Of a stretch of 64,000 bases of DNA, positions 1,255 to 53,876 are shown piece by piece; position 1 is the stretch's first letter, and each line of letters begins with the position of its first letter. The DNA is taken from NCBI RefSeq assembly GCF_000003815.2, contig NC_049980.1, positions 26,106,951 to 26,170,950 on the forward strand, given 5' to 3'. Origin of the DNA: Branchiostoma floridae (Eukaryota > Chordata > Leptocardii > Amphioxiformes > Branchiostomatidae). Below the pieces are notes generated by a model. It saw only the letters and a list, made by a program, of their open reading frames with translations, was not told the DNA's origin and made no database searches. Made by a program: the position numbers and the translations under genes.

Positions 1255-1785
1255 ACCATCTTCTTAAAGACACACATCCTTCACAAATAATGTGTCTTGA
1301 GTACATCCTGAATATGACCTGAGGCAGGTAGACGTCTTATTGTTGTCAGTGATGTTGAATGGTTGCCTGATGATCTTAAAGACCCACATTCTTTACAAAT
1401 GATAGATCTTAAACACATCTGGACCATGTCTCAAGACAGGTAATTCTCTAATTTACTTCTTGTTGTCTGTTAGATGTTGGATGGTTGCTATCGTAAAGAC
1501 ATCCTTCACAAGTAATAAATCTTAAGGACATCCGGACCGTGTCTCAAGACAGTAGATGTCTTATTGTTGTCTGTAAGATGTTGGATGGTTCCGATCATAA
1601 AGACATCCTTTACAACTGATAAACCTTGAAACATCCAGACCATGTCCTAAGACAGGTAATTGTCTGTAAGATGTTGATGGTTGCCATCTTGAAGACCCAC
1701 ATCTTTCAAATGATAAGATCCTAAGCACTTCCTGACCACAGGTAGTTGTCCCATTGTTGTCTGTAAGATGTGAAATGGTTGCCCT
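1255..1785. repeat. Diverged tandem repeat, about 5 copies of ~90-118 bp
   Basis: Five successive units share the same order of words: a GACATCCTTCACAAAT-like block, then TAAATCTTAAG, then a CATCC..ACC(AT)TGTC block, then AGACAGGTA, then TTGTTGTCTGTAAGATGTTGGATGGTTGCC. Units begin near 1265, 1380, 1497, 1600 and 1693. Copies differ by substitutions and small deletions, and the last is the shortest. Open frames that cross it (for example minus 1561-1881) are shadows of the repeat. Confidence 0.85.
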
Positions 1786-5053: not shown

Positions 5054-5142
5054 GAAAGTGCTGTTGAACCATAGATAGTGATGTGGAAAGTGTTGTTGAA
5101 GCATAGATAGTGATGTGGAAAGTGTTGTTGAACCATAAATTG
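5054..5142. repeat. Tandem repeat, 32 bp unit, ~2.8 copies
   Basis: GAAAGTG(C/T)TGTTGAA starts at 5054, 5086 and 5118, an exact 32 bp period. Each unit continues with CCATAGATAGTGATGTG. Copies are nearly identical, so the array is younger than the degenerate repeats that follow. Confidence 0.9.
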
Positions 5143-8689: not shown

Positions 8690-9510
8690 TGCTTTTCCCT
8701 GCCCTTGGTGCTGAATGCATTCTACACTAACAACAATGTCCCTGTTGCATGATGCTTTCCACACTAACAAAACTGTCTCTGGTGCGTAAGACTTTCCACA
8801 CTAGCAACACTGTCTGGGGTTAACACTTTCTGCACCAGAAGCATTTCCCTGTCCTTAGTGCTGAACGCATTCCACACTAACAACACTGTCCTTAAAAACA
8901 TTGCCTCTGGTGTTTAACACTTTCTGTACTAGCAGCACTGACCCTCTCCTTGGTGCTGAATGCTTCCAACACTAACAACAGTGTCTGATGCTAAACGCTT
9001 TCCATATCACATTTTCCCTGCCTTTGGTGCTGAACACATTCCACACTAACAACACTGTCACTGTTGCCAAATACTTTCCACACTAACAACACTGTGTCTG
9101 GTGCATAACACTTTCCTCACTAAAAACACTGTCTGGTGCTAAACACATTCCACACAACATTGTCCCTGTTCTTGGTGCTGAAGGCATTCCATACTAACAA
9201 CACTTTCCCTGTTGCTGGATGCTTTCCACACCAACAAAACCGTCTCTGGGGCTTAACACTTTACAGACATATAACACTGTCTGGTGCTTAGCACTTTCCA
9301 CACAACATTGTCCCTGTCCTTGGTTCTGATTGCATTCCACACTAACAACACTGTCCCTGTTGCTGGATGCTTTGCACACTGACAACACTGTCTCAGGTGC
9401 TTAACACTCTCCACACTAACAACACTGTCTCTGGTGCTTAACACTCTCCACACTACATTGTCCCTGTCCTTGGTGCTGAACAGTGCTGTCCCTTTCCTTG
9501 GTGCTGAACA
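8690..9510. repeat. Minisatellite, ~35-50 bp variable unit
   Basis: About 18-20 degenerate units of the form CTTTCCACACTAACAACACTGTC followed by CCTG(T/G)..TTGGTGCTGAA or TCTGGTGCTTAACA. Units alternate between a CCCTGTCCTTGGTGCTGAA type and a TCTCTGGTGCTTAA type, so a higher-order dimer or trimer structure is likely. The cysteine/valine-rich minus-strand frames here (9194-9453) are translations of the repeat, not genes. Confidence 0.92.
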
Positions 9511-9708
9511 TGTTCTGCAATTTGTTTGTTGAACTTGTTGTTCCCCCTTTTATTTATTTTTTGTCTAAGCTTTTCTCTATCTGCAAACAGTGTTTTGTCA
9601 GATATCTTATAGTGAATAGTGAATGCTTGGAGAGGAGCAGTCTTTTCCAGAGGATTGGCAGGTAAACCAAGCCAAACAGAACATACTCTGTCCCAACATG
9701 CAGAAAAA

Positions 9709-10200
9709 AGCCCCATCAGATGAGCCTGTAGAAGGGATATGTGCAAGAACAGCAGTCACATAAGATGAGCCTGTGTGTGTACAAGAATGGCAGTCCCATC
9801 AGATGAGCAAGTATAAAGTATTTGTACAAGAACAGCAGTCCCATCAGATGAGCCTGTATGTGTACAAGAACAGCAGTCCCATCAGATGAGCCTGTATGTG
9901 TACAAGAACAGCAGTCCCATCAGATGAGCCTGTATGTATACAAGAACAGCAGTCCCTTCAGATGAGCCTGTATGTACACAAGAACAGCATCCCATCAGAT
10001 GAGTCTGTATGTGAACAAGAACAGCAGTCCCATCAGATGAGCCTGTATGTGTACAAGAACAGCAGTCCCATCAGATGAGCCTGTATGTGTACAGGAACAG
10101 CAGTCCCATCAGAGCAGTCCCATCAGATGAGCATGTATAAAGGATATGTACAGGAACAGCAGTACCATCAGATGAACATGTATGAGGGATGTGTTCAGGT
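9709..10200. repeat. Minisatellite, 38 bp unit, ~11 copies
   Basis: CAGTCCCATC starts at 9836, 9874, 9912, 9950, 9988 (one base deleted), 10025, 10063 and 10101. This gives a strict 38 bp period for the core, flanked by more diverged or longer (~45 bp) units on both sides. Each unit reads CAGTCCCATCAGATGAG then CCTGTATGTGTACAAGAACAG. The core copies are almost identical, which suggests recent expansion. Because 38 is not a multiple of 3, the short open frames here are artefacts. There are no unique spacers, so this is not a CRISPR array. Confidence 0.97.
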
Positions 10201-18640: not shown

Positions 18641-21589
18641 TAAAATCTCCTTGATCTGATAAAAGCTCTTTGCTTATTGTGGACCAGTAGATCAGCCAGA
18701 TTGTTGCTTGTTTGCTTGTATGTGGACCAGAGTGCTGTTTTTAGGCCTTTTGGGCCAGTATCTGGGCCAGTGTGGTGTCTAGGCTAATTGACATGGGAGG
18801 ATGGGGCATACCACCTGACATAAGAGGGTCAGCGTTCCATACGATAGGGCTGGGGGAAGAACAGCTGACGGGGAGTAATGGGGCTGCAGTTTCTGATGGT
18901 TTTTCCGATAATGGGAGCCCATTTGGACCGGCAGAATCCGATAGGTGCAAATATTGCTCACCTGAGGCGGCCGGAGTCGATGGCTGGAATGTTCCAGTAA
19001 GTGTAGAGAGTTTGGGCTGTACTGTTATGGGCAGAAACACCTGCACCAGTTCAGGAAAATAGTGTGACATGCCTGTCCATGGTGCTGAAATTGGCTGTTG
19101 TTGACTACCTGGGACATCCCTTGTTGAAAAATGTCTGTGATTGTCCCCTGTACAATCTGGGGTGAAAACTGTCTGAATTTTGAGACTCTCCCCCACCCCA
19201 ACAGCCATTTGTGACAGTGATTAAGAGGTGAAATAATGTAATTAGTGCTCATGTGTTAATTAAGAGTGAGGAATGATGTCAGGATGTTAATTAATTGTTG
19301 GGTAATGAAGAGTTATGAACAAGGGAAAAATTTGTTAGGCAGGAGGTCTTATCACAGGCAGAATTCAGAGTAAAACCAGCAGGGGTTTGTTGGGGGGGCA
19401 TGTTTAATTCACCATTGACTCGCCACTTGTATAGATTGGTCGTGGTGCAGCTCGTGTCATTAATTGGCTGTGCTCTCAACAATTCAAGTTCCTTTTTTTT
19501 TCCCTTTTCTCTTGCATCATAGTTGATCTGATGGCAACTGCTCTTTATGGGTTAATGGGTTTTTCTCACCTCAAAGTATAACTGTTAAGTCTCACGAAAA
19601 CAAACATACAGACTTTCATTTTAATAAGATAAAATAAAACAAAAGGTAATGACAGAACAGAGTAAAGATACTGCATGTGTGGTTGTACTGAGCTGACCTG
19701 AAGGGATGCACAGTTGACAGTTATCCTGTCTGAATTATTGAATAGGAGACAGGACAACTCTGAGAGAAACAGCAGGGAGCAAACGTCTGGCAGACACTGT
19801 CTGCTGAACCTAGGCCTACAGTAATTTATGTTCTTGTGTCTTGGATATTTAATCACAGTTAAAATTAATCGAGAAGGCAAGATTAAGTTTAATTTGACAG
19901 GAGAACTTGACTATGTTCAATCCCCCAAACTTTCTGTACCAAGGACTAGACATTCACTTTTCATGTTGATATTTTAATTGAGCACTATTTATTATACCAA
20001 AAGAACAACAAACTTGATTGGTCTAGCCTAACCAGACCCCCCTCCCTTGAGACTGTGGCAGACAGACAGACTGACTCCGGCAGGTATCTCCTGTGGGAGA
20101 GTACAATCCACCAGGTGTGGTGAGCAGGTGTGATGAATGGACACCATCACCTGTCAACAGGACAAAGACTTCTAGCACAGGTAGTAATAATGCAAGGGCT
20201 GTGAACATTTTATTCAGTGACGTACCAACCTGATGAAACTATTCTGGATGCAGGACAAAGAGTTAATTGTATCACAAAGAAACATTGTCTGGGACTTACT
20301 TAGAATCTGTCCCCCACTGAGACTTGGCCAGACAGACAAGAAAAGTCTTTAATTCATAGACAAACAATCTTTCCTGTCCTGGAGGATCCTGTTCTATCTG
20401 AAATCTCCTGCAGACAGCTCAAAATGTGCCACAGGCTTTTAGCTTGCGAGCCTCAAGGCATCCTGGGACACCCTTCACTGAAACAAAAGAGAAATTAGAT
20501 GCCCTACTTGTGTAGCAGGATGCCCAAAGCTATCCAGAGAGCCCATTAGGGAACTCTGGTTCCATAGGTAGAAAAGAAAACCAATTTGAATGGTTGACCA
20601 ATAGATTTGTACCAAGCAGTTTCAGTTGTACTCAGTGTTGTTGCAAGTTATAGAATAATGTTTTTTTATTATTGCCCCAAATCCAGCAATCTTAAGTGGT
20701 GGAAATGCCCCCTTCCCCCCAAAAATTTGAACACGTCTATAAATGAAATGTAACCCCTGGCCTATTTGGGAACTCAGGATCTATTTGACATACTGATAAA
20801 TATTCTTGCCTATGTACAAGATTGGGTATTGAATTCATATAAAAGCAACATTGTCATAATTGAATGGAATGTCTCCTACTCCAGACTCCCCTGGCAGCCA
20901 GGCAGACAACAGAAGTGTCTAAGACATTGTCTGGTGTCTATGACACTGTCTCAGACACTCAGGATCTTCTCCTTGCCAGGAGACACTGTTGTGCAAACCC
21001 CATTGTGTCGGGTACATCCAGGGGGGGAACTGTCAGCCTGGGACCAGGAAAGCCCCATCTCTGAGATCAGCCCATGCAAATGCTGTTACAGGAATCCCAT
21101 TTTGTGTTCACTAAGATATAATGAAAAAACTTTTGACAGAGGTTAGACTTCCAGGTAGAACATTACAGAATACAAAATAAATCAAGCAACTGCATAAATT
21201 CTCTAAAACGTCAGATGTTTCAATTAGCATTCCTGGGGGTTACTTATGAAAGATGGTCGATGCTATTTTGAGCATAATACAGATAATCTATCCAATTGCT
21301 TGATTTATTGTCTATTACATAATGAACAACTGGTGCAAGTAACCTCAACTTAACCTCAAAGTAACAATGCTTTCCAAACATATCAATATCGTATCAATAG
21401 TCCAAACGTGCATGTAATATTGTAAGGCTTAAAGAGTCAATGCCCTTGAGTTGTGTTTTGCACAATGTCATAAATGAGAGCTCCGACCCAAACAACCATG
21501 TCAAAAACTGCTGATTAATGTGTAATTGTTTCTTTACATAATGTGCAAAATAAAATCAATCATTCCATGAATTGATTTATCATTCCTGT
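18641..21589. other. Non-coding stretch with a GC-rich segment and duplicated words
   Basis: 18800-19010 is GC-rich and open on both strands (minus 155 codons, plus 96 codons). It ends in a good donor-like TTCCA/GTAAGTG near 19000, but neither reading is distinctive. 19225-19310 is packed with TAAT/TTAATTAA words. GAGACT(G/T)..CAGACAGAC words repeat near 20050-20075 and 20320-20340. Short ACTGTCT repeats occur at 20920-21000. No gene is supported. Confidence 0.5.
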
Positions 21590-25829: not shown

Positions 25830-26340
25830 AGCACACATCTGTATCCTAGAGCTTCTTTCTCATTAATTAGATTTTCAAGTAAGGGAACAGATCTAACAGG
25901 TGTTCTCCTTCCAGACAGACTGGGGTCTCAAGGACCTGTTGACATGTCTTGGGCAGGGTCATCTGTCCTACATGTCATGAAAATATAGAAGATGAATTCC
26001 ACTTTGTTATGAAATGTCCTACCTACAGTAAAGAGAGAGAAACATTGTTTAAGAATATTAGAACCAAAACACACATCTCTCTTACTGGTGCAGAAAATGA
26101 TATTTTCAATATATTGCTCTCATGTTCAACTCATATATCCGTCTACGTAGGCCAGTTTCTTCATAATGTATTCCAAATGCGAGACCAGATTACCTATACA
26201 TAACTGTACTGTTATCGATAATGTTTCGTTATTGTTTTGTATGTAGCCTCTTAGTACTATTGTCTGTATAGCTATTAGTTGTTACTGGTTGCCATACATT
26301 GTACCCTGTGCGATTGTTGAGCAATAAACTCATTCATTCT
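25830..26340 (+). mobile_element. 5'-truncated CR1-like LINE: reverse transcriptase C-terminus plus 3' UTR
   Basis: The frame at 25949-26203 has no ATG at its start and reads GRVICPTCHENIEDEFHFV followed by MKCPTYSKERETLF. That is the Cys-x2-Cys...Glu-Asp...His-Phe...Cys-Pro-x-Tyr...Arg-x-x-Leu zinc-knuckle-like block found after the reverse transcriptase domain in CR1/L2-type LINE proteins. Upstream, the matching coding continues in another frame (SLIRFSSKGTDL near 25858-25893), so a frameshift and a stop (25940-25942) separate them. The stop at about 26201 is followed by ~135 bp of 3' UTR that ends in GCAATAAACTCATTCATTC at about 26321-26339, the short repeated tail typical of CR1 insertions. 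The element is dead: 5' truncated and frameshifted. Only its last ~0.5 kb is here. Confidence 0.78.
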
Positions 26341-33910: not shown

Positions 33911-34505
33911 GGGTGTGCCTAAACACCACAAACCACCACAAACAACTCAGAAACACCACAAACGACCACAAACAACTCTAATATGCAGTGTATATGGGTC
34001 AAAAACCTTGTGTGGCGCTCTGGAGACATTGTTTATGCATTTATGAATTCACCAGTTATTTCAAGTTAGTCCGCCGGTTTCAAGATCGAAGCGATGTCAA
34101 TGAATGCGTGCTTGCATTTGAGGCTGAAAAACTCTTAGTATACAAGTTTTATAAGTTGACAATGATAGAGTAGTACTATGCTATAATCTATGAACCAACA
34201 ACTTCCATAGTTTTATCGCCATGTCGTCTATGAAACCGAGGAAGGTATAGAGAACTTCCCCATGCAGACCCCTAGCACGGGCGATCCAACATGGCGGCCA
34301 AGAATTGCTTCGATCTTGAAACCGGCGGACTAACTTAAAATAACTGGTGAATACATAGGACTTTCTGCGTTTTTTAAATTCATAAATGTGTAAACAATGT
34401 CTCCAGAGCGCCACACAAGGTTTTTGGCCCATATACACTGCATATTAGAGTCGTTTGTGGTGTTTCTGAGTCGTTTGTGGTCGTTTGTGGTGTTTAGGCA
34501 GACCG
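33911..34505. mobile_element. Foldback / Mutator-like MITE with ~190 bp TIRs and 9 bp target duplication
   Basis: The left arm (about 33912-34098) is repeated in inverted orientation at about 34311-34504 at high identity by eye. Both arms contain GGT(G/C)TGCCTAAACACCACA, then several ACCACAAAC repeats, then GCAGTGTATATGGG, CTTGTGTGGCGCTCTGGAGA, and TTAGTCCGCCGGTTTCAAG. The right arm carries a ~28 bp insertion relative to the left. The element is flanked by identical 9 bp direct repeats GTTGAGGTG (33902-33910 and 34506-34514). Long TIRs with a 9 bp target duplication fit Mutator-like elements, although other superfamilies make 8-10 bp duplications. Near-identical arms explain why both strands encode the same short frame (MYMGQKPCVALWRHC). 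This is not a gene. Confidence 0.85.
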
Positions 34506-35840: not shown

Positions 35841-35955
35841 GTCCCTAATCCTAATCCTATCCCTAATCTTGTGTTCCCAATCCCGTTCCTAATCCCCTGT
35901 TTGTAAAGCCTGGCAGGCTGATCAGCCAGACTGATTAATCCTCTCTAATCCGTAG
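35841..35955. promoter_or_regulatory. Cluster of TAATCC sites (Otx/Pitx/Gsc-type homeodomain words)
   Basis: TAATCC occurs at 35846-35851, 35852-35857, 35890-35895, 35936-35941 and 35946-35951, with TAATCT at 35864-35869 and an inverted GGATTA near 35784-35789. TAATCC is the preferred site of K50 homeodomain proteins. Five exact sites in ~105 bp are far above random expectation, though part of the run (CCTAATCCTAATCC) could be simple-sequence slippage. Confidence 0.45.
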
Positions 35956-35959
35956 TGCC

Positions 35960-36540
35960 TAATGTCTGATGTCTGGTCTGTCATTGTGTCTCACCTGAAA
36001 GAGAAAACTTCTTAACTCAGCCATTGTCTCACTTGCGGAGGCAAAATAAACCATTATCTATAAACCTGAGAGGGACAAACCTGGGTCCCCACCTAGATCC
36101 TTTGGTAAATGTAAAAGTAGCACAAATTGGCCAGATGAAGTATATACATGTTATGTGCCAAATGAGTTGCCTCAGCCTTTTGGGGCAGAAGTTTTTCTCC
36201 TCTGACCATGCCAGCTAATTATTAAGAAAACTTTGCTCAATTTTTTTCAGATTTACACAATTTTTCATGTCCCAACTGAGCACGGTAAGAGCAGACATCC
36301 TCAGACTGATCAATGCTGTCTGATCCATGACTTATAGGGGGATGTTTGATGGATGGTCTGTCGTCTTGTCTCACCTGAAGGGGAAATCCAGCCATTATCT
36401 CATCACCTGAGGAGGCAAAATCAACCGTTGTTGTTACACGGGAGACAAACTCCAGTTCTTTTCAGGCTCCTTTGACTAATACCACTTAGTTGAGAGCTAC
36501 AAAAATAGTACAATTTGGATAGCATCCAGAATTTTCCTAG
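35960..36540. repeat. Two diverged ~190 bp copies, ~385 bp apart
   Basis: GATGTCTGGTCTGTCATTGT then CTCACCTGAA, then GCCATTGTCTCA, then GGAGGCAAAAT, then GGGACAAAC (35968-36085) recurs as GATGGATGGTCTGTCGTCTT, GTCTCACCTGAA, GCCATTATCTCA, GGAGGCAAAAT, GGAGACAAAC (36347-36460). The second copy runs into the 154 bp tandem duplication that carries the duplicated exon edge. Confidence 0.75.
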
Positions 36541-36775
36541 TCATTAGGATCAATATTTCTAATCCTTTAGATATTATTCATTTCTACTATTTTTCAGCTC
36601 CCATAGGAGACTGGTGGAGACTTTGACTTAGCACTTAGTTGAGCGGAGAGCTACAATAATTGTACAAATTGGATAGCATCCAGAATTTGCCTAGCCAGTA
36701 GGATCAATATTTCTAATCCTTTAAACATTATTCATTTCTACTATTTTTCAGCTCCCATAGGAGACTGGTGGAGAC
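36471..36775. repeat. 154 bp tandem duplication spanning an exon boundary
   Basis: Two copies of GAGCTACAA(A/T)AAT(A/T)GTACAA, TTGGATAGCATCCAGAATTT, CAATATTTCTAATCCTTTA and ATTCATTTCTACTATTTTTC are followed by AGCTCCCATAGGAGACTGG. The duplicated acceptors are at 36597 and 36751, 154 bp apart. The upstream copy keeps the acceptor and the first ~24 nt of the exon (36598-36621), then breaks into TTTGACTTAG. The downstream copy continues into a full exon with donor. Confidence 0.9.
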
Positions 36776-36832
36776 AAGACAGCGCAGCCGCTCCCTCGTT
36801 AGCAGTGATGATGTCAGACTCATAACGAGCAG
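36752..36832 (+). CDS. Candidate exon, 81 nt, phase 2/2, with duplicated 5' edge
   Basis: The acceptor TTCATTTCTACTATTTTTCAG ends at 36751 and a donor GCAG/GTGAGAGG begins at 36833. Only one frame is open (C, then 26 codons, then AG), giving SHRRLVETRQRSRSLVSSDD followed by VRLITS. It is basic and serine-rich, like a phosphorylatable linker, with R-S-R-S-L resembling kinase or 14-3-3 sites. Codons are GC-rich at third positions against an AT-rich intron. The phase-symmetric length (81) means inclusion or skipping keeps the reading frame, as for cassette exons. The truncated upstream copy of acceptor and first 24 nt could compete for splicing. Protein family unknown. Confidence 0.5.
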
Positions 36833-37633
36833 GTGAGAGGGACGTGGGGGGACAATATCAAATCAATACTTCCTTTATATGACAATGACTTCAATGTTGA
36901 TATGTAAAGATACGTAATTGTTACACTGTGTATATATAAATACTAGCTAAAATTGCTTTGTGCTATGATACAATTTTGATGCATTGGCGTTTAGGCTGCC
37001 ACTGTCTGGCACTTTGTATTCTTGATCAAATAAACCATTGATATACTAGTACATAACATAACGAGGCCGCAGGATGAATAAAGTAGAAACCCAGCTCTGC
37101 ACGTACCACCCGCACACCTGTATAACAGATGACAGCTACTGCAGCACGTTCCCTACAGGAAGACAGGAAGATTGATCTCCTCCCAGATAAGCAGGATCTG
37201 CAACGATGCTCATGTTCTCAGCACCAGTTTCTGCACAATGCTACAGCAAACCATCTTTAAAAGTATTTCATTTCACTTTTATTATTTAGAACCTCTTAAG
37301 TTTGTATTCTGTGTACTTGTGTACCTGAAATCAGACCAATTTGGTTGAGGGGACCCAATGTATCATGCTTATGAATGATTGATAGATAAAAGTGACAGCA
37401 CTTTGAACAACTTTCTGTAATAAATGTGAATTCATCTTTTGTTATCAAATCAAAAAATATCAATGCTAGACATGTTAAAGTTAATTTGCTTAATGCTCTC
37501 TTGCATCAAATTTTGTGTTTTTGGAGTGGTAGATTACACCAGAATCAGGCATTGGATGTCTTTTTTTTTCCAAGCTGCTTTTCACATTCGAAGATTTGAC
37601 ACCAAACTGGATCAGAAGTTTATTTTACAGTAG
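36833..37633. other. Intron-like stretch with one alternative exon signal
   Basis: A good acceptor (GCAGCACGTTCCCTACAG, ending about 37171) opens a coding-like + frame reading EDRKIDLLPDKQDLQRCS and stopping at TAA near 37258, with AATAAA at about 37415-37420. It could be an alternative 3'-terminal exon, but the neighbouring frame is equally open (it includes RLISSQISRICNDAHVL), so neither is called. Confidence 0.4.
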
Positions 37634-37810
37634 GTCTGTGATGAAAATGATGAAAAGAAGCAGAACTACGATAGCCCCACCAGCTGGGACGTCGTGGCAG
37701 ACAGGTCATTCGCATTGTGCGTTTCATGGGAGTCATTTGCATCAGACACCCCACGGGAGTTGTCTAGACGCTGGAAGACCTGCGCAATCGATGATGTCAT
37801 CTCCTGTGAC
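37634..37810 (+). CDS. Candidate exon, 177 nt, phase 0/0 (strand ambiguous)
   Basis: Read on the + strand from the acceptor TTTTACAGTAG (ending 37633) to a strong donor GTGAC/GTAAGAATA (37811), exactly 59 codons are open. The translation has a charged start (VCDENDEKKQNYDSPTSWDV) and continues VVADRSFALCVSWESFASD, TPRELSRRWKTCAIDDVIS and CD. Third positions are GC-rich relative to the flanks. It is phase compatible with 29863-29913 before it and 42283 after it, but not with 36752. The same DNA has a competitive minus-strand reading (see 37666-37873), and only one can be real. Family unknown. Confidence 0.35.
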
Positions 37811-37873
37811 GTAAGAATAATGGTGAGATAGTCCAGGATGTATGCTGTGATGCTGAGTCTCCTCTCCCATCCT
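37666..37873 (-). CDS. Alternative reading: minus-strand terminal exon
   Basis: On the minus strand an excellent acceptor (AAATTTTTCTGTCCAG, ending at 37874) is followed by 69 open codons to TAG (37668-37666). AATAAA lies 42 nt further downstream (37624-37619 on the minus strand), as expected of a last exon. The translation begins GWERRLSITAYILDYLTIIL, continues SQEMTSSIAQVFQRLDN and becomes polar (SDANDSHETHNANDLSATTS) before ending QLVGLS. The hydrophobic N-terminal segment could be a helix, and the polar tail would be cytosolic or disordered. I cannot choose firmly between this and the + strand exon. Confidence 0.3.
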
Positions 37874-38826
37874 CTGGACAGAAAAATTTGATTAGGATAC
37901 AATTCCTGTAACAATTACTCCCAGCTTTTGTGTCTAGATTTTTCACATCACCCACCATGTACTACAACTACATTAGGCTGTCTCCAGGACCATGCTGGGA
38001 TGGAAGTGAAACTTGTTTGTGGGGACAGGAACTTGCTTGTGGGGACAGACAAAATTTCACCCCATCCATCAAAATTACATGAGAATACATTTTTGCATGA
38101 CATTTCTATCCATTTTGGGGCCTCCAAAATGCTTTCTTATAGAGGGAAATATAAAATTTGACTCAATATAGTGTATCTTTAGTTTTGCAAGCAATATACA
38201 TGTATAAAGGGACATTGAAAGGTGAAACAAGTGATTGCATTTGTCTAGCCTCAATGCACCTTGTACATCCAGAAGTCAATATGTCCTAATTTGGGATATT
38301 TCTAATCTTCTCATGAATTGTCCAAATTTGCAAATCTTTATTGGAAAACTAATTCATGATTTGCACCATTGTGTTTTTTCCACAGAATCAGTAATGGAGA
38401 TAAAGTAGGTCTCAAAGTCAATGGATATGATTCAAATCAATTCTTATACAAAAACATGTTCATCAGGGTCTGGATTTCTGCGGAAATCTTGTTAAAGACA
38501 TTACATCACCCTGAAAGGAAAGGGAATTTCCTATCTGGGATACGGCAGATTTCGTTATGATCGCAAATGGCCAAAACTAATTAAATTAGAGATGTCTCCT
38601 CATGACTCATCTCGTTACCAGTAATGACATCGGTATTTTGGAGAGACCTTAACGACCCAAATGTGATTAACAAGGAGAAGTCAGGTTAAATCAGACGGCT
38701 GGAATGTTGGCCAAGGCTGGCTATGATGTTCAAACTGACAAACTTGAAACATCCTCCATTTGACAAGGTGAAAGGATTCTTTTCATTGTGGTGTTGTTTT
38801 CCACATTTGAGTAAAGGTCATTGTGT

Positions 38827-38857
<31 letters not shown>

Positions 38858-39615
38858 GTGTGTGTGTAAGTGTGTGTCCATATGAAAAAAATATGCATCT
38901 GTCAGTGTACATTTTGTATCTATTTGCGTATATGTGTCCATTGGTCTGTGTGTTGGAGAGTTTCTTTTGCATATGTGTGAATTTTTATTATTGTTTCAAT
39001 ATGTATATTGATTACTGCTTAAAACAAATGCATTTCATGCCATGTAAGCAATGACAGAGTTAAGGAAATGTTGATTTTGTTCATAAATACCTGCCATGTG
39101 TTGGAAATAAAATCTGAATCTGCTCATGTGCATGAGTGTTCATATGGTATGTGTGCATGTATCTCTGTGTGTATAGACAGTGAGACATATGGTGCATGAG
39201 GTGAACGGAAATCCAGGCCTGACCTTCCATGTGTGAACTCTGCATCCCACTATCTTCAACCTCCAACTGTCCTCCATGCCTGCCTTAGCATACAATTTAT
39301 TTCACCTATGGAAACCCTTGAGTTTTGAGACAGTCCCTATGTTTCCCACAGGGAACTGTCACACTCACCTCAGGGAGTGCAAAGTCATTAAGGCTATGAT
39401 TAACACACCAGATTAATTAAGATATCAGACTTCATGTCAGCAGAATGTGATGCTGTAACAAAGACAAGGTTTGCATGTTATTTTTTATTATCTATTTATT
39501 ACTGTCATCATGTGACACACTTGGATGACAAAGTGGATTTTACAGATCACATCCTTTAGATAACTGAAACAAAAATAGAATGTCACAAAAATGAAAAAAA
39601 AGGTTTGATTTTTAA
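37874..39615. other. Intron-like stretch with a possible exon signal and AT-rich regulatory-like DNA
   Basis: A strong acceptor (TTGTGTTTTTTCCACAG, ending 38385) opens a 58-codon + frame to TGA at 38560 (it includes GDKVGLKVNGYDSNQFLY). No good donor is visible, so it could only be a last exon or chance. 38580-38700 has TAATTAAATTA and GATTAA words typical of homeodomain sites. 39376-39420 has similar words. Confidence 0.45.
38823..38853. repeat. (TG)n microsatellite
   Basis: Uninterrupted TG dinucleotides for ~29 bp, followed by interrupted TGTG runs to about 38877. Confidence 0.97.
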
Positions 39616-39995
39616 GAATGGCTGAGGCATCTGTATTCTGAACACACCTGTACATAAACAGGACAGCCAGTTTGCTATGAGGCACCTGCATTCTGTAGGT
39701 ACCTGTGCAACAACAGCACAGCAAGTTTGTTTTAAGGCATCTGCTGCATTCTGTATACACCTGTACAGACACAGCTTGTTTGCAGTGACTCCCCAGTATT
39801 CTGTAGGCAGCTGTATAGGAACAGGACAGTAAGCTTGCTGTGACTGAGGTACCTGCTGCATTGATTCTGTAGGCACCTGTCACAGAAACAGGACAGTAAG
39901 CTTGCTGTGAGGCACCTGCTGCCTTCTGTATGCACATGTCACAGAAACAGGATACTAAGATTGCTGTGAGGCACCTGTATTCTGTAGACATCTTT
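39616..39995. repeat. Minisatellite, ~55-65 bp unit, ~6 copies
   Basis: Units of the form (A)GGCACCTGCTGCATTCTGTA, then GGCACCTGT, then (C)ACAGAAACAGGACAGTAAG, then CTTGCTGTGA are repeated from the first ATTCTGAACACACCTGTACA to the last GAGGCACCTGTATTCTGTAG. The 167-codon minus frame (39488-39991), rich in Cys, Thr and Ala, is a translation of the array and is repetitive (TEYR/TEC motifs), so it is not called a gene. Confidence 0.9.
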
Positions 39996-40127
39996 TTACA
40001 GAGAGTTCAACCAACCTGTCAGCATCAGAGCCCAGCGCAGAACGATAAGTAATGGGAGTTGTCATAAAATGATTATTTCTTCATTTTTCTCGGGAGGAAA
40101 GCTACATCACTGCCTATGCTGTTGCAG

Positions 40128-40266
40128 GCATGACAAATGGAAAACCTCTCCCCCCAGGGCAGCTGCCTGTAGTGGCAGAACAGGGAATTCTGTCTTGCAT
40201 AATAATGTAGAATGGGGCAGGAAAATGTGCTACGATCTTTTTTCAAGAAGAATCCCAAGATATCGG
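40128..40266 (+). CDS. Candidate exon, 139 nt (or 109 nt), phase 2/0
   Basis: Two acceptors are possible: GCCTATGCTGTTGCAG (ending 40127) and ACCTCTCCCCCCAG (ending 40157). The donor is ATCGG/GTAAGAAC at 40267. Both starts give the same frame and phase 2/0. The open part includes RAAACSGRTGNSVLHNNVE and WGRKMCYDLFSRRIPRYR. Codon bias is weak, so coding status is uncertain, but the phases fit exactly between the 36752 exon (ends phase 2) and the 42283 exon (starts phase 0). The frame +1 to this also reads protein-like for 26 codons before a stop. Confidence 0.35.
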
Positions 40267-41407
40267 GTAAGAACTAGAAATTGTGACTTGATGACAAAAC
40301 GGTTGTCAGTCTAAAAAATCTGGGTGTTGTTTGCTGAGTTTATCTGTTGTTGACATTTATAATTCCCCATTAAAGATCATATGTGGAAAAAAAGTTACTC
40401 CCCTATGTTCCTACAGCTCCTAACCCTAACATACAAGGAGCGTTGAAACATAGCAGCATTCTAACATATCGATACCGTGAGGGGCGTTCGGGTGACGGAA
40501 TATAGGCCTGTCGGGCGTATTGGAACATAGTGGCGTCTGAACACAGGGCCGTTCGAAGATTGGAGGGTCCGAAGACAAGGGCGTTTTAGAAAATAGGTAT
40601 GTCCCCGTAAAAGAAATATTTCATACCTTCCCTTTATGTCCCCCTCCCCCCTTTCCTCCACTGGATTGAAGCTTGAGACGTTTTCCCAAAGTTTTCGCAA
40701 CTTCTGTATGCACCTGTTAAGTTCACCGCACTATGATCTCGGCTGGCCCAATATCCATCAGTATCCAACAATGGCTGCCTTGCTGATGGATACCAGGCAG
40801 GCAGGCACGTTCCCAGCATAGCCATGGTGGATCTAAGTCCTGGTGTAATGGGTCCATTTCTTACCAAATGGAGACTGGACGGTTCTCTGGCTGTGGATTA
40901 TCGGTACATCAACCATCAAAGTCAGTGTGATCGGTGGATGGATTTGCCAGGGTTTGTACGGAGTGGTCAGTGTCTTCATCACATGCAGTGGCAGGAGGCT
41001 GCTGCAATGCTTCATCCTTTACTCCTGACATCCGGTTTATACATCTTCCTGCTGTACTCGGGTTCGTAGACTTTTGATGACGAGAATATTGATGATGAAA
41101 GCATAAGCCATATGTATTGTAATAGTACCTTGAATGTGAATTTTGATGCAAGGGTTCGGTCTCTTTTCCCTTCTTTACGGTGTTGGAAAGGCAGGAAGAG
41201 ACGAGTATGTTCAAGGTAGGTTGATCAGAACAAGTATTCTGCTCATGGCCCTGTGATGGGTTCCTGGTGTTGAATATTTTTATAGTTCCTTTATGAATGT
41301 CTCTTAGCTTGCAGACTAAATGCTTGGGTATGTTTGTAGGACTTTGCGGCACCAGCCCTGTACTGATACTATCATAGATACCGGAAACCAACTATCAAAG
41401 CCGAATG
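40267..41407. other. Intron-like stretch with GTTC/ACATA repeat words
   Basis: 40390-40600 repeats degenerate words (GGCGTTCGG, GAACATAG, TGTTCCTACAG), suggesting an old tandem or foldback repeat. The 160-codon minus frame at 40909-41391 has no recognisable motif and no splice context. Long random frames of this size are expected a few times per window. Confidence 0.45.
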
Positions 41408-41690
41408 ACATGTAACGATCTGCTGAGTATGGCAACTCGGTTGTCAGACTGTGAACTGTGAATTTGCCGACAGTGATAACTCAGTTGTCAGTCTATGACT
41501 TATAAATCTGCTAACTATGACAGAGTGTGACATGTAAATCTGCTGATTGTGACGACTCAGTTGTCCGGCTATGACATGCAAATTTACTGACTGTGATAAC
41601 TTAGTTGTCAGAGTGTGGCATATAAATCTGCTGAGTATGACAACTCAGTTGTCAGACTATGACACGTAAATCTGCTGACTGTGTCAGGAA
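41408..41690. repeat. Tandem repeat, ~50 bp unit, ~6 copies
   Basis: Units of TATGACA(C/T)(G/A)TAAATCTGCTGA, then (G/C)T(G/A)TGACAACTCAGTTGTCAG, recur with small deletions. The unit includes the 12 bp near-palindrome TGACAACT..AGTTGTCA, so each copy can form a hairpin. Confidence 0.9.
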
Positions 41691-49258: not shown

Positions 49259-50460
49259 GATGCTGAAGAAGAGTGATGAGTTCACTCGAAATGTCCGGAA
49301 TTTATTCTGTAACGTATGAAGTTGTAGAGATTGAATTATCTTTGAATAGATGCTGTTCATCTGTTGTTTTACAGACCGTCTACAGCTAAGGGGACGTTTA
49401 ACCTGCATAAACGGAACTCTCTAAAATAAAAGCGTTTCTACTTCCCAGTGGGTCGTGAGTGGACCGCACATTCTGATGGGATATGACAGGTTTTGTAGAG
49501 ATTTTCCCGCCGTTAGAATATCGATGAACCTGCCTGGGGAACAGATGGCAGCCTGATCAGCCCGTAATCCTGCACTTATTACATTACGAAACAGCTGCTC
49601 GCCGCCCTCCTGCCCTACATACTAGTAAGCCTACTAGTAAACGACACGCGCGTCATAACACGCGTATCTCATGTCAGAGCAGAGGTTATGCAGAGGAGGT
49701 CCGTAACGTTTCCTGACTGATGGGATCGTGTTCTGTTGTCAGAGAAACCGTCCGGCTGTCAGAAATAATTACGATTTTTTTTCGCAGCTTGGAGATTACT
49801 CATACGGCGCACGTATAACACTCGACACTTTGGGTTTACACGCTTGTGATTTCCTTTGGGTTTCAAACGCTTTTGGGTTTCCCTGGCTATAGGGTTTGTG
49901 TGTGACACCAGTAGGTATCGCCAAGTAGTTGCAACGTTACCAGTGTGAAGAAAGCTTTGGCTTCGGAAGACTTCTTCTCCCTCCGCGTCATGAATAAATC
50001 AGCAGCTAATTCGGCTCCGCGTAATGACAATTTCATGCCTGCCACTTCTCGCGCCGTTCGTCATTTACGCCTTCTTTGATTCCGTCAACATAAAAGGCAG
50101 TAAAAGCCGTACGTTATATGGAGTTTATTCCCCGCTTAGAAACCGTTGAGCTGGTTTCAAACGCCCGTCCCGTGGAAGTCGTGTTCCGGGCCGCCGGGTT
50201 TCACGACACAAATCCGAGGGGGAAGGAACAGAGCCCGAGCCAATTATCAGAGTCTTCGCATTGCTGACAAAACTCGCCGTGAACGCGGCGTCACCCTGTC
50301 AATGACCTTTGGGCAAAGTTTTTTGATTACCAGAAGGACGCCAGAATGTCGAGCGTATTTTTCGGCACTTTGAACGATGTACGATTTTTTGCCTCGTGTA
50401 AATCGTGCCTTCGTCTGAAAATCTGCCCCGTTACATGAGACAGGGGTGAGATAAGCTAAA
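49259..50460. other. Non-coding stretch
   Basis: CpG-containing, no supported gene. GGGTTT.. words repeat at 49830-49890 (TTTGGGTTTACACGC, TTTGGGTTTCAAACGC, TTTGGGTTTCCCTGG), a small tandem repeat. The segment at 49260-49310 has a CTGAAGAAG...CTCGAAATGTCCGG pattern that I also see near 55670, likely a dispersed-repeat remnant. Confidence 0.5.
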
Positions 50461-50952
50461 GGCACAACCCGCCGTACGTGCTTTTTGTCCGTACATTTTT
50501 GGGAGCCACGTTGTTCTCAAAAAGTGGGGAGGAGTGGCAAGAGCAGGGAGGGAGTACGTCCCAACGCACGTCACTCGCACGGTTGCGCAAGTTGTAAGCC
50601 GGTAAGCCGGTTGCATACATCGTTCGCTGCGCAAGTGGTAAGTGAGTTGAACGTGCGATCTCTGTGCGATTGTCACGTTACTGTATGCAGGCCCTACTTA
50701 CACGTGCTGCGTACGTACGGTGTCCTTACTCGTTGTACGGGGTGCGCGCGTCGCAAATTGCGCGCGTCGCAAATTCGGAGCCCGATGGCATAGACAGTTC
50801 TACATGCACCTAGAGTTCTATGTCGTGTCAGCGTGCTCCGAAATCCGTTGGATTCCGTACGGTTTCGTACGGAGGCGGGTACTTACCACTTACGGATCCC
50901 AAAAGATTGCCCACGCAGTCACCACGCAGTTGCACGTATGGCGGCTTGTGCC
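50461..50952. mobile_element. CACAACCCGCCGTACG-family TIR element, copy 1
   Basis: The left end GGCACAACCCGCCGTACGTGC (50461-50481) is inverted at the right end (GCACGTATGGCGGCTTGTGCC, 50932-50952), 21 bp with two mismatches. The word CTAAA directly flanks both sides (50456-50460 and 50953-50957) and may be a target duplication or part of the longer TIR seen in copy 2. The distal half (CGTGTCAGCGTGCTCCGAAA, TCGTACGGAGGCGGGTACTT, ACCACTTACGGATCCCAAAA) is closely related to copy 2. It is rich in CGTACG palindromes. There is no transposase. Overlapping Ala/Arg/Cys-rich frames on both strands are artefacts. Confidence 0.85.
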
Positions 50953-51268
50953 CTAAAGCCTGGGGCACAACCCGCCGTACGTGCAATTTATCCGTACGTT
51001 TTTTGTGGAGGCCACGTCAGTCTGTACATGTCAGGTGCGTCGCCCGTACTGGCACGTACGGAGGGCGAATCCGCAGCCCGAACGCAGAGAAAGTTCTGCA
51101 TGCACTTAAATTTCTACGGCGTGTCTGCGTGCTCCCAAATCCGTGGGAATCGCCACGTGTTCGTACGGAGACGGTACTTACCACTTACGGATACCAAAAA
51201 ATTGCCCATGTTTTGGCACGTAGACAGCACGCACTTGCAAGTACGGCGGGTTGTGCCCCTAGCTTTAG
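50953..51268. mobile_element. CACAACCCGCCGTACG-family TIR element, copy 2 (head-to-tail with copy 1)
   Basis: GGGGCACAACCCGCCGTACG (50962-50981, extending to 50986) and its inverted partner (51235-51259) match at 24 of 25 positions. Allowing two differences, the TIR extends outward to CTAAAG (50953) and CTTTAG (51268), about 34 bp. It abuts copy 1 with no spacer and in the same orientation. Its interior (GCGTGTCTGCGTGCTCCCAA, TCGTACGGAGACGGTACTTA, CCACTTACGGATACCAAAAA) parallels copy 1, but it lacks ~175 bp of that copy's interior. Confidence 0.88.
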
Positions 51269-53876
51269 CTATACCTACGATCATTTGCCTATGCCTAAAA
51301 TCGCGTGTTGATTGAGAGAGGATTACTCATTTAAGCTCGCAGACTGATCCGGAGCGCTATTTCCCTGCTGTTTGACTCCGGGAATGGAGAATTAAGAAGT
51401 CTTGCCATGCCCTGTACATGTGTAAGAGTTTGGACAGAACTTCTCTCATCTCTCTTGCAGACACGTCCCAAGTAGCAGCTGTGAAGCAAAGTTATAGCCA
51501 TGCTAATATAGCAATAGCAATAGCAATAGCATGCTTCTTGTCCAGACATTTCTATCCCTTCCAGTTTGCTGCTTTCTGATTGCATGATTTTTATGCGGCA
51601 GCCTCCAAGGGTTGATGTGTGGTCCAATCTCCAGGCAGATGTTAGGGAATGCTAAACCGTCACATTTTCCTGGTTGTCCTTTCCTGTGTCGAAATGTCTT
51701 CCTTACCTTGACACAGAAAATGCTGGCTTGGAAACATAACGGTTAAGATTTCCTCCATCTGCTTGGAAGCTTAGCGTGACAAAGGAGGTTTTTACTATAA
51801 CTTTATTGGAGTCAGAAAACGTGACGATCATCCACCCCAACATCTGCTTGAACTTAGAGAGCAGCCCTGATAACATGCAGCCCTCCAACTGGAACACCAC
51901 TCACCAGCCGTCCCGCTGTGAGCTTGGACTCAAATATCAGCCTGTCTTTAAACTTGGAGTGTTTACAGCTATTTAAAGCCCGGTCCGATTGCGTGGGTGT
52001 ATGTCTGCAGCCCGGTCACGTGGCGATCACGTGGCACAGCGGGTGGGGAGGGGCAAGTCGGCCTCCCGACAGGTTTTACATCAAACAGGTGTCCTGTCAA
52101 CACTGTGTTTCGTGTTTCGGCTGAGCTGCAGATCTTTTCCTTGGTTGTTTTTGCGGATGTGGAGTTAGAGTTAACAAAATGTTGCTTTCCTGTTGTTTGT
52201 GTGTCTAGATTACAGCCATTTGCTGGCGTGTATGTTGGAGTAGCTGAGAAATGATGTCATACTTCCAAAATGGATGTACAAATGTAGTGTAGCACTAGCA
52301 GACTCTGAACGAATGAAAGAAGCTTAATTCATTTGTCTGACGCTTAACACGCCCAGCCCACGTGGATATATAAGACATGAAAAGAAAGTACAGATTATTT
52401 GATACATATGGCAAGAGGTCAGAAGTATATATTAATATAGTTGACTTTTATAAGATTAAGAAACAGTAGATAAATAGATATAATAGAATTCAGGCGTACA
52501 AAATCAACACTAATAGATACTTAAGCACACATATTCAAAGACAAAATCAGTAACAATACCCAATAGTTTTATGGATGTTCAGCATGTTTGTTTGTATTCT
52601 GGCCAGTTTGACGTTTGCGATTGTCACTTCTTTCAATCGTCCAGCACTTTAGCGATCGTTTGTGGAAACTGTCAGTCCCTGGAACAGACCAAGTTTATTT
52701 GGAATAGGGAAGCCTGAGCCAATATTATGGCTGGGTGTCCGTCCTGCGGGCTGAGGATCCGTACTAGCACTGCCAAGCGGGGAGGCAATACACATAACTT
52801 CCACTAGATCTATAGACCTCAATGCGATGGTACGGAATGTACAATTTACATGTACTGTGTCTGCGAGAAGGTTGTCATTTGCCCCTTAAAAATGTTACCC
52901 TGTGGTGACCAAACTCCCCCTGCGCATACTAGTATTCTCCCTAGCCATAGTTGTTATTCTCGTAGAGACATGCCGTGATGTGTGGCGGTCCGGGTGAGTA
53001 GGGGATGTGGTGTGTTGATGCAGGATCAAGTTTAGACAAGTGTGGGGAAAGGAGAACACCTGGAAGGAGGGGGAAGGGGGCGACAGGGGATCTGTTCTTT
53101 TCTATGCAGTTTTTTAAAAAGTTTAACCTAATCACGGCCCATTGTCCTCCCTTTAAACTACTAAAAGTGCCATTATCGCGCCAAGGAGACTGTTTGTGCA
53201 CGACGGTTTCTGCTGCACCGAGCTCCTGCATGATCGATTTTTGGATGCTCACTGCGATATGCTGCTTTCATTACGTGTATGTAGTGAGAGTCAGATGTTT
53301 TATCACAAGTAGGTCGTTGGTACAAAGCGACATCTTTGCAATCTTTCCCGCGAAAAGATCGATCGTTTGTCAACCTGTATAATCTCAAAGCCTTTGGCGA
53401 TGTGGATGCAGGCCAGACACCATAACACTGAACAGGCGACTCTGTTTCACAACATCCTCAACTCCGTAACTTTTGGCCCGACTATCAGCGTCACAACAGA
53501 CACACAAGTTCAACTCACGTCACTCTTCGCCGACTCTTAGAGTTACAACATCCACAAGTGTCGTAACTCGCGCGTAACTGTGATGCCCCCATTGCAAGTG
53601 TTACAACAGCCACAGCTCTCGTATCCCTACGGTTAGTGACTATGTCTCTCGGACTTGCTGAAAGAGTTGTGCCGCCAACTCCGCGAACATCTCTCGATTT
53701 TATGAAAGTTGGGCGACATTTGGTGACCTTCCCGGTGGATGATGGACGTCCTGATCCTCGTTCTGGCCGCAGATGGGAAATAAACCGACTTGTGGTGGAT
53801 AGTGATCTACTTTATCAGCTGTTTAACCATTCGGGTTATCGGGATGGATACAAAATCGATATGTTTTACATACTAC
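51269..53876. other. Non-coding stretch with minor repeats
   Basis: (AGCAAT)4 microsatellite at about 51508-51532. MITE-like ends CCAATCTCCAGGCAGATG (about 51626-51643) and ATCTGCTTGGAAGC (51758-51771). AT-rich AGATA-type DNA at 52390-52560. A purine-rich block is at 53040-53090. The + frames 53005-53382 and 53636-53965 are open but have no motif or splice context. Confidence 0.5.

Follow-up and report, generated by a model that had tools for sequence, protein, structure and literature searches.

A 154-bp tandem duplication across a predicted intron/exon boundary of Branchiostoma floridae, a probable lancelet 'mirage'

The locus described here lies on Branchiostoma floridae contig NC_049980.1, in a 64,000-nucleotide stretch of DNA that was analysed as a whole (the window), and comprises a predicted 81-nt exon, its donor, a tandem pair of sequences that each carry an acceptor and the 5′ edge of that exon, and a more decayed duplication on the upstream side. 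The features, with positions numbered from the start of the window, are as follows.

35927..36300, + strand: older, decayed copy of the neighbourhood, matching 36302-36469 and, less surely, 36621-36781 (BLAST, repeat families)
36470..36621, + strand: copy 1, with the intron end, a complete-looking 3′ splice site and the first 24 exon nt, without a donor (TRF, alignment, site scoring)
36559..36563, + strand: branch-point-like CTAAT of copy 1
36578..36597, + strand: pyrimidine tract and CAG acceptor of copy 1, the decoy candidate (score 8.1, rank 8 of 4037 AG sites)
36598..36621, + strand: copied 24 exon nt, followed by TTTGACTTAG, with TAG at 36629-36631 in the inferred frame
36621..36775, + strand: copy 2, which runs on into the remainder of the predicted exon (TRF, alignment)
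36713..36717, + strand: branch-point-like CTAAT of copy 2
36732..36751, + strand: pyrimidine tract and CAG acceptor of copy 2, the putative true acceptor (rank 8 of 4037 AG sites)
36752..36832, + strand: predicted exon, 81 nt, phase 2/2, GC fraction 0.23 above its flanks (splice-site/GC-contrast finder, shuffles)
36833..36838, + strand: donor CAG/GTGAGA (CAGGTGAGA; score 6.5, rank 5 of 4127 GT sites)

The exon was scored by a measure that combines acceptor, donor, open frame and GC contrast, applied to both strands of the 64-kb window, and 36752-36832 stands at the top of the 29 segments found (21.5, with the next independent candidate at 17.3). None of 100 versions of the window, each made by a block-wise dinucleotide shuffle of its full length, reaches 21.4, the maximum being 20.1, and the remaining exon candidates in the window score within the shuffle range. 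The segment is open in one of its three frames, giving SHRRLVETRQRSRSLVSSDDVRLITS plus split codons; the length of 81 nt agrees with the original prediction, as does, in this frame, the phase of 2 on entry and 2 on exit. Skipping the exon would keep the frame, as was also proposed, if the exon is coding. One open frame across 26 codons does little to demonstrate coding, and 36752-36832 is regarded as a putative coding exon.

Splice sites on the + strand were scored at AG and GT dinucleotides with simple weight matrices. The acceptors ending at 36597 and 36751 consist of the same 20-mer (TCATTTCTACTATTTTTCAG), so this sequence is no handicap for copy 1, and each has upstream of it a CTAAT that resembles yUnAy, the branch-point consensus. 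The exon nucleotides present in both copies are CTCCCATAGGAGACTGGTGGAGAC (24 nt). Eight GTs lie between 36597 and 36833, the best of them scoring -0.8 versus 6.5 for the donor at 36833. The absence of any donor-like GT at copy 1 led us to reject two further ideas for it, a mini-exon and recursive splicing. A further AG ends 9 nt into the exon, at 36759-36760 (CTCCCATAG), where a small in-frame shift of the acceptor is possible; the exon-like segment starting at 36761 scores 17.3.

The duplication itself is recovered by three approaches: TRF reports a period of 154 with 93% matches at 36492-36775, local alignment pairs copy 1 (36470-36621) with copy 2 (36621-36775) at a spacing of 154 bp, and BLAST gives 89.8% identity between them over 157 columns. 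All three agree with the earlier claim that the acceptor and the 5′ edge of the exon occur twice, 154 bp apart, and alignment and site scoring likewise uphold the claim that the rest of the exon and the donor belong to the downstream copy only; the repeat coordinates were correct to within one base, with the start at 36470 rather than 36471. The two copies differ by nine substitutions and two indel events, all of which fall within the first 108 columns, and the final 49 columns – spanning the pyrimidine tract, the CAG acceptor and the 24 exon nt – are without a difference. A single C at 36621 is the only base common to both copy alignments, and there is thus no long microhomology at the duplication junction.

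Beside the pair lies an older duplication, the left part of which is secure on the alignments: 35962-36055 matches 36342-36429 at 73% (BLAST, E 5.7e-11), and collinear ungapped pieces of the repeat families D8, D2 and D3 recur at spacings of 375, 380 and 374. The right part is less well supported; its collinear piece belongs to family D6, at a spacing of 388, which is present in three copies at 36113, 36501 and 36655. It is likely that this duplication included the exon edge and that its acceptor has since been lost. The older copy has CATG at 36266-36269 where the young copies show CAGC, and near the end of the extended alignment, at about 36300, ATTTTTCATGTCCCA stands opposite the ATTTTTCAGCTCCCA of the young copies. 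The score of its last 102 bases is reached by 4 of 1000 shuffles in comparison with copy 2 and by 9 of 1000 with copy 1, and that of a 246-base stretch by 47 of 1000 and 69 of 1000, respectively. The whole older unit scores 157 against a model of the pre-duplication sequence (shuffled-extension mean 128.2, sd 7.9, maximum 164, n=1000) and 151 against copy 1 (mean 128.0, sd 7.6, maximum 165), both values being surpassed by some of the shuffles. Random segments of the window match the older-copy score in 34, 8, 5 and 5 cases of 500 in four settings, counts in which some of the segments (those with scores up to 298 or 334) must overlap the target itself. The extension requires many gaps: where 36266 is paired with 36595, at the acceptor, the spacing is 329 bp instead of 374-388 bp. 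As it stands, the older duplication is consistent with a repeated turnover of units. Also within the older copy, at 36251-36284, a further, strong acceptor TTTTTTTCAG (8.1) and a donor-like GTAAGA (5.0) bound 34 nt that form a possible pseudo-exon.

With no donor in copy 1 itself, the only likely product of its acceptor would be an exon of 235 nt, from 36598 to the donor at 36833. Since 235 leaves a remainder of 1 on division by three, use of the acceptor at 36597 would shift the frame. Read in the inferred frame, the product would run into TAG at 36629-36631 once 10 codons had been translated; if that frame is right, no product of copy 1 can keep the reading frame. Nonsense-mediated decay (NMD) is as a rule triggered by a premature stop situated over about 50 nt upstream of an exon junction. 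The TAG sits 201 nt ahead of the exon end at 36832, and an mRNA using acceptor 36597 is expected to be an NMD substrate, provided that the inferred frame is correct and that there is a further exon downstream. The suggestion of 'poison' splicing made in the original prediction is in this mechanical sense possible.

Sequences of this kind have been reported before from lancelets, where tandem repeats across intron/exon boundaries are termed 'mirages', a name taken from earlier work on Adh3 (PMC3087553). In the globin gene BflGb6 the repeated units contain the 3′ end of the intron and the 5′ part of exon 2, are 150-160 bp long and 81-100% identical, and carry splice signals in many, though not all, of the copies (PMC3087553). 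The units of Adh3 are given as 10-72 bp in the same report (PMC3087553), and a second report adds mirages in troponin C (TnC) and in PGBD5, the latter with units of 60 or 108 bp (PMC3902484). Regular splicing appears to be undisturbed by them: this is suggested by Adh3 data and by RT-PCR of BflGb6 (PMC3087553), while Adh and TnC are stated to be without aberrant mRNAs and normal splicing of PGBD5 is its authors' inference (PMC3902484).

The resemblance to BflGb6 is close in the type of boundary, in unit length (150-160 bp versus 154 bp), in identity (81-100% versus about 90%) and in the presence of splice signals in the copies. The unit at 36621-36775, copied at 36470-36621, crosses an intron/exon boundary as far as the predicted exon holds, its 154 bp and 89.8% identity lie in the BflGb6 range, though other mirages differ in unit length, and the same 20-nt tract with its CAG occurs twice. 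The differences are that BflGb6 has six or three units depending on haplotype, whereas the present locus has two young units and an old degenerate stretch, and that BflGb6 transcripts were checked by RT-PCR, whereas splicing of the 154-bp locus is predicted from its sequence. Mirages of Adh3, TnC and PGBD5 likewise duplicate splice sites in short tandem units, although units of 10-72 bp (Adh3) and of 60 or 108 bp (PGBD5) are shorter than 154 bp. The globin, Adh and TnC mirages have been called perfect, unlike that of PGBD5 (PMC3902484), and the copies here are about 90% identical; for BflGb6, however, 81-100% is the range given in PMC3087553. Because it agrees with BflGb6 in the kind of boundary, in unit length and in identity, we file the locus as a probable mirage, a further example of a kind already known in lancelets.

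Tandem duplication of exons can give rise to mutually exclusive exons. Such duplications share with the present locus the tandem repetition of exon sequence, but here only 24 of the 81 exon nt are copied, without a second donor, and copy 1 stops after those 24 nt rather than offering an acceptor and a donor in each copy. Intron gain in Drosophila has been traced to tandem duplication of AG/GY proto-splice sites within coding sequence (PMC2891723), which is similar in that a short stretch close to a splice signal is duplicated in tandem; the Drosophila unit, however, supplies both a donor and an acceptor, whereas the 154-bp unit supplies an acceptor only and no new intron arises from it. Mirages have been proposed as a source of new introns (PMC3087553), and the earlier description of the locus as an exon-shuffling intermediate comes near to this published model of intron gain, although what the sequence shows is a duplication and no sign of a further step.

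The reading we prefer, with a probability of roughly three in four, is that the locus is a two-unit 'mirage' minisatellite in which the acceptor of copy 1 is a mostly silent decoy. A small tandem duplication, probably through replication slippage, template switching or unequal exchange, would have had ends that fell by chance in the intron and 24 nt into the exon. The resident copy 2 would have retained the full exon together with a branch point, a tract and an acceptor, while the upstream acceptor of copy 1 could pair only with the donor at 36833, giving the 235-nt product with its early stop and an mRNA that would be degraded. Exon definition would favour the acceptor nearer the donor, at 36751. 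We infer that copy 1 is tolerated and that the acceptor of copy 2 is the one used. The part of the original prediction that described a tandem copy of the acceptor and 24 exon nt, with the donor downstream only, thus stands, and the part that raised a possible effect on splicing is disfavoured by the published mirages.

The literature on competing acceptors bears on this choice in both directions. Reed and Maniatis found that the upstream of two competing 3′ sites is chosen (summarised in PMC9225289), a rule that points to copy 1 and against the silent decoy. Human transcripts show an overall preference for the upstream site, strong where introns are short but significantly weaker where splicing proceeds by exon definition, and in that mode, with long flanking introns, the 3′ sites closest across the exon are stated to be favoured (both PMC9225289). 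Other exon candidates in the window being no better than shuffles, the introns here are suggested to be long, and acceptor 36751 is expected to dominate splicing. Also in favour of the silent decoy, beta-globin substrates with a duplicated 3′ site placed beside 14, 55 or 205 exon nt used the distal site exclusively, if with very low efficiency (PMC5389562). Mirages are natural duplicates of an intact 3′ splice site and can test how the spliceosome chooses between identical acceptors, besides being of interest as a proposed origin of new introns. At this locus the acceptors agree over 20 nt at a distance of 154 nt and an in-frame stop distinguishes their products, so that it would be a clean substrate for such a test of acceptor choice. 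By itself it leaves existing knowledge unchanged.

A different reading, which we regard as unlikely, makes the acceptor of copy 1 a regulatory (poison) 3′ site, whose 235-nt exon would lower expression through NMD and whose function would lead selection to keep the two acceptors alike. The premature stop 201 nt before the exon end at 36832 agrees with this, as does the unchanged tail of 49 columns, set against 11 events in the first 108 (P 0.012 for events and 0.025 for substitutions, on the assumption that events fall uniformly along the 157 columns), and constraint on copy 1 is to that extent suggestive. The test of tail identity was, however, chosen post hoc, once the pattern had been seen; constraint on copy 2 alone gives P 0.107 for an unchanged tail, and for this reason selection on copy 1 is not accepted. 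Gene conversion would homogenise the tail too, and concerted evolution has been reported among the BflGb6 mirages (PMC3087553); published mirages are moreover reported as leaving splicing undisturbed (PMC3087553, PMC3902484).

The silent-decoy mirage must also be weighed against an assembly artefact, in which two divergent haplotypes of one boundary would have been placed in tandem or the copy number would be wrong. The BflGb6 mirage looked aberrantly assembled in the draft genome and occurs in haplotypes with six and three units (PMC3087553), and the repeat number of lancelet PGBD5 differs between two versions (PMC3902484). Since published mirage assemblies have been faulty or version-dependent, the number of units at this locus may be wrong. 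An artefact is nevertheless improbable: a separate older duplication adjoins it, re-sequencing of PGBD5 argued against assembly error there (PMC3902484), and TRF finds tandem arrays with units of 104-151 bp at four more sites of the window (1449-1665, 8951-9481, 9740-10113 and 41406-41642), which make a real duplication at 36470-36775 plausible without special assumption. The arrays at 8951-9481 and 9740-10113 are multiples of 37-38 bp units. Minisatellites are densely packed at 8699-10199, where nested repeats of 37, 74 and 148 bp are followed by units of 38 and 151 bp.

Quite doubtful, too, is the more elaborate proposal that the exon edge was duplicated at least twice, first by the old event of about 375-390 bp, in which the acceptor would since have decayed to CATG, and then by that of 154 bp, and that the young decoy has been kept for an NMD switch. 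If it were true, the twice-duplicated edge with its switch would amount to a time series of the birth, use and decay of a mirage.

Very improbable is the view that the 81-nt segment is not an exon at all and belongs to an ordinary intronic minisatellite with splice-like ends: it would accord with the Pfam search of the + strand, which gave no convincing family, with the PDB search, which gave no convincing relative of the 26 residues, with the absence of 36752-36832 from the output of a codon-weight exon finder, which listed 18759-18996 only, and with our own estimate that one 26-codon open frame is not unusual by chance, but none of the 100 shuffled windows holds an exon-like segment of equal score, and the acceptor and donor are each in the top ten of their own kind on the strand.

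The Pfam search of the three + strand frames over 1-64000, with stops as X, gave no convincing family; it was run in 13 stretches, which meet without overlap at 36000 and 41000 and overlap by a base or two at 5100, and listed matches with E up to 0.5, except for one run with a limit of 1, which had no match, and the – strand was covered over 36001-40802. The matches obtained on the + strand, to POP1_C (0.18), Anti-TRAP (0.18), DUF3915 (0.21), BUD22 (0.36) and DUF7783 (0.29), and on the – strand to Spectrin_5 (0.055), were all below the curated cut-offs and are regarded as chance matches. In the PDB the 26 residues (SHRRLVETRQRSRSLVSSDDVRLITS) found no convincing relative, and the two matches (E 0.78 and 0.79), to chains named core protein / matrix protein 2 / external core antigen, are likewise attributed to chance. 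The window contained no tRNA and no Rfam family at gathering score.

Elsewhere in the window, an ORF at 25943-26200 contains a Cys/His pattern (CPTCHENIEDEFHFVMKCPTYSKERETLF) reminiscent of the C-terminal part of reverse transcriptases from non-LTR retrotransposons; it has no Pfam match at E up to 0.5. Short arrays at 33921-33978 and 34448-34495, about 500 bp apart, are made of CACCACAAAC-like units and of units similar to their reverse complement. Several long, overlapping + strand ORFs at 50455-51312, in a G+C-rich segment, contain stretches that look similar by eye, perhaps a dispersed repeat.
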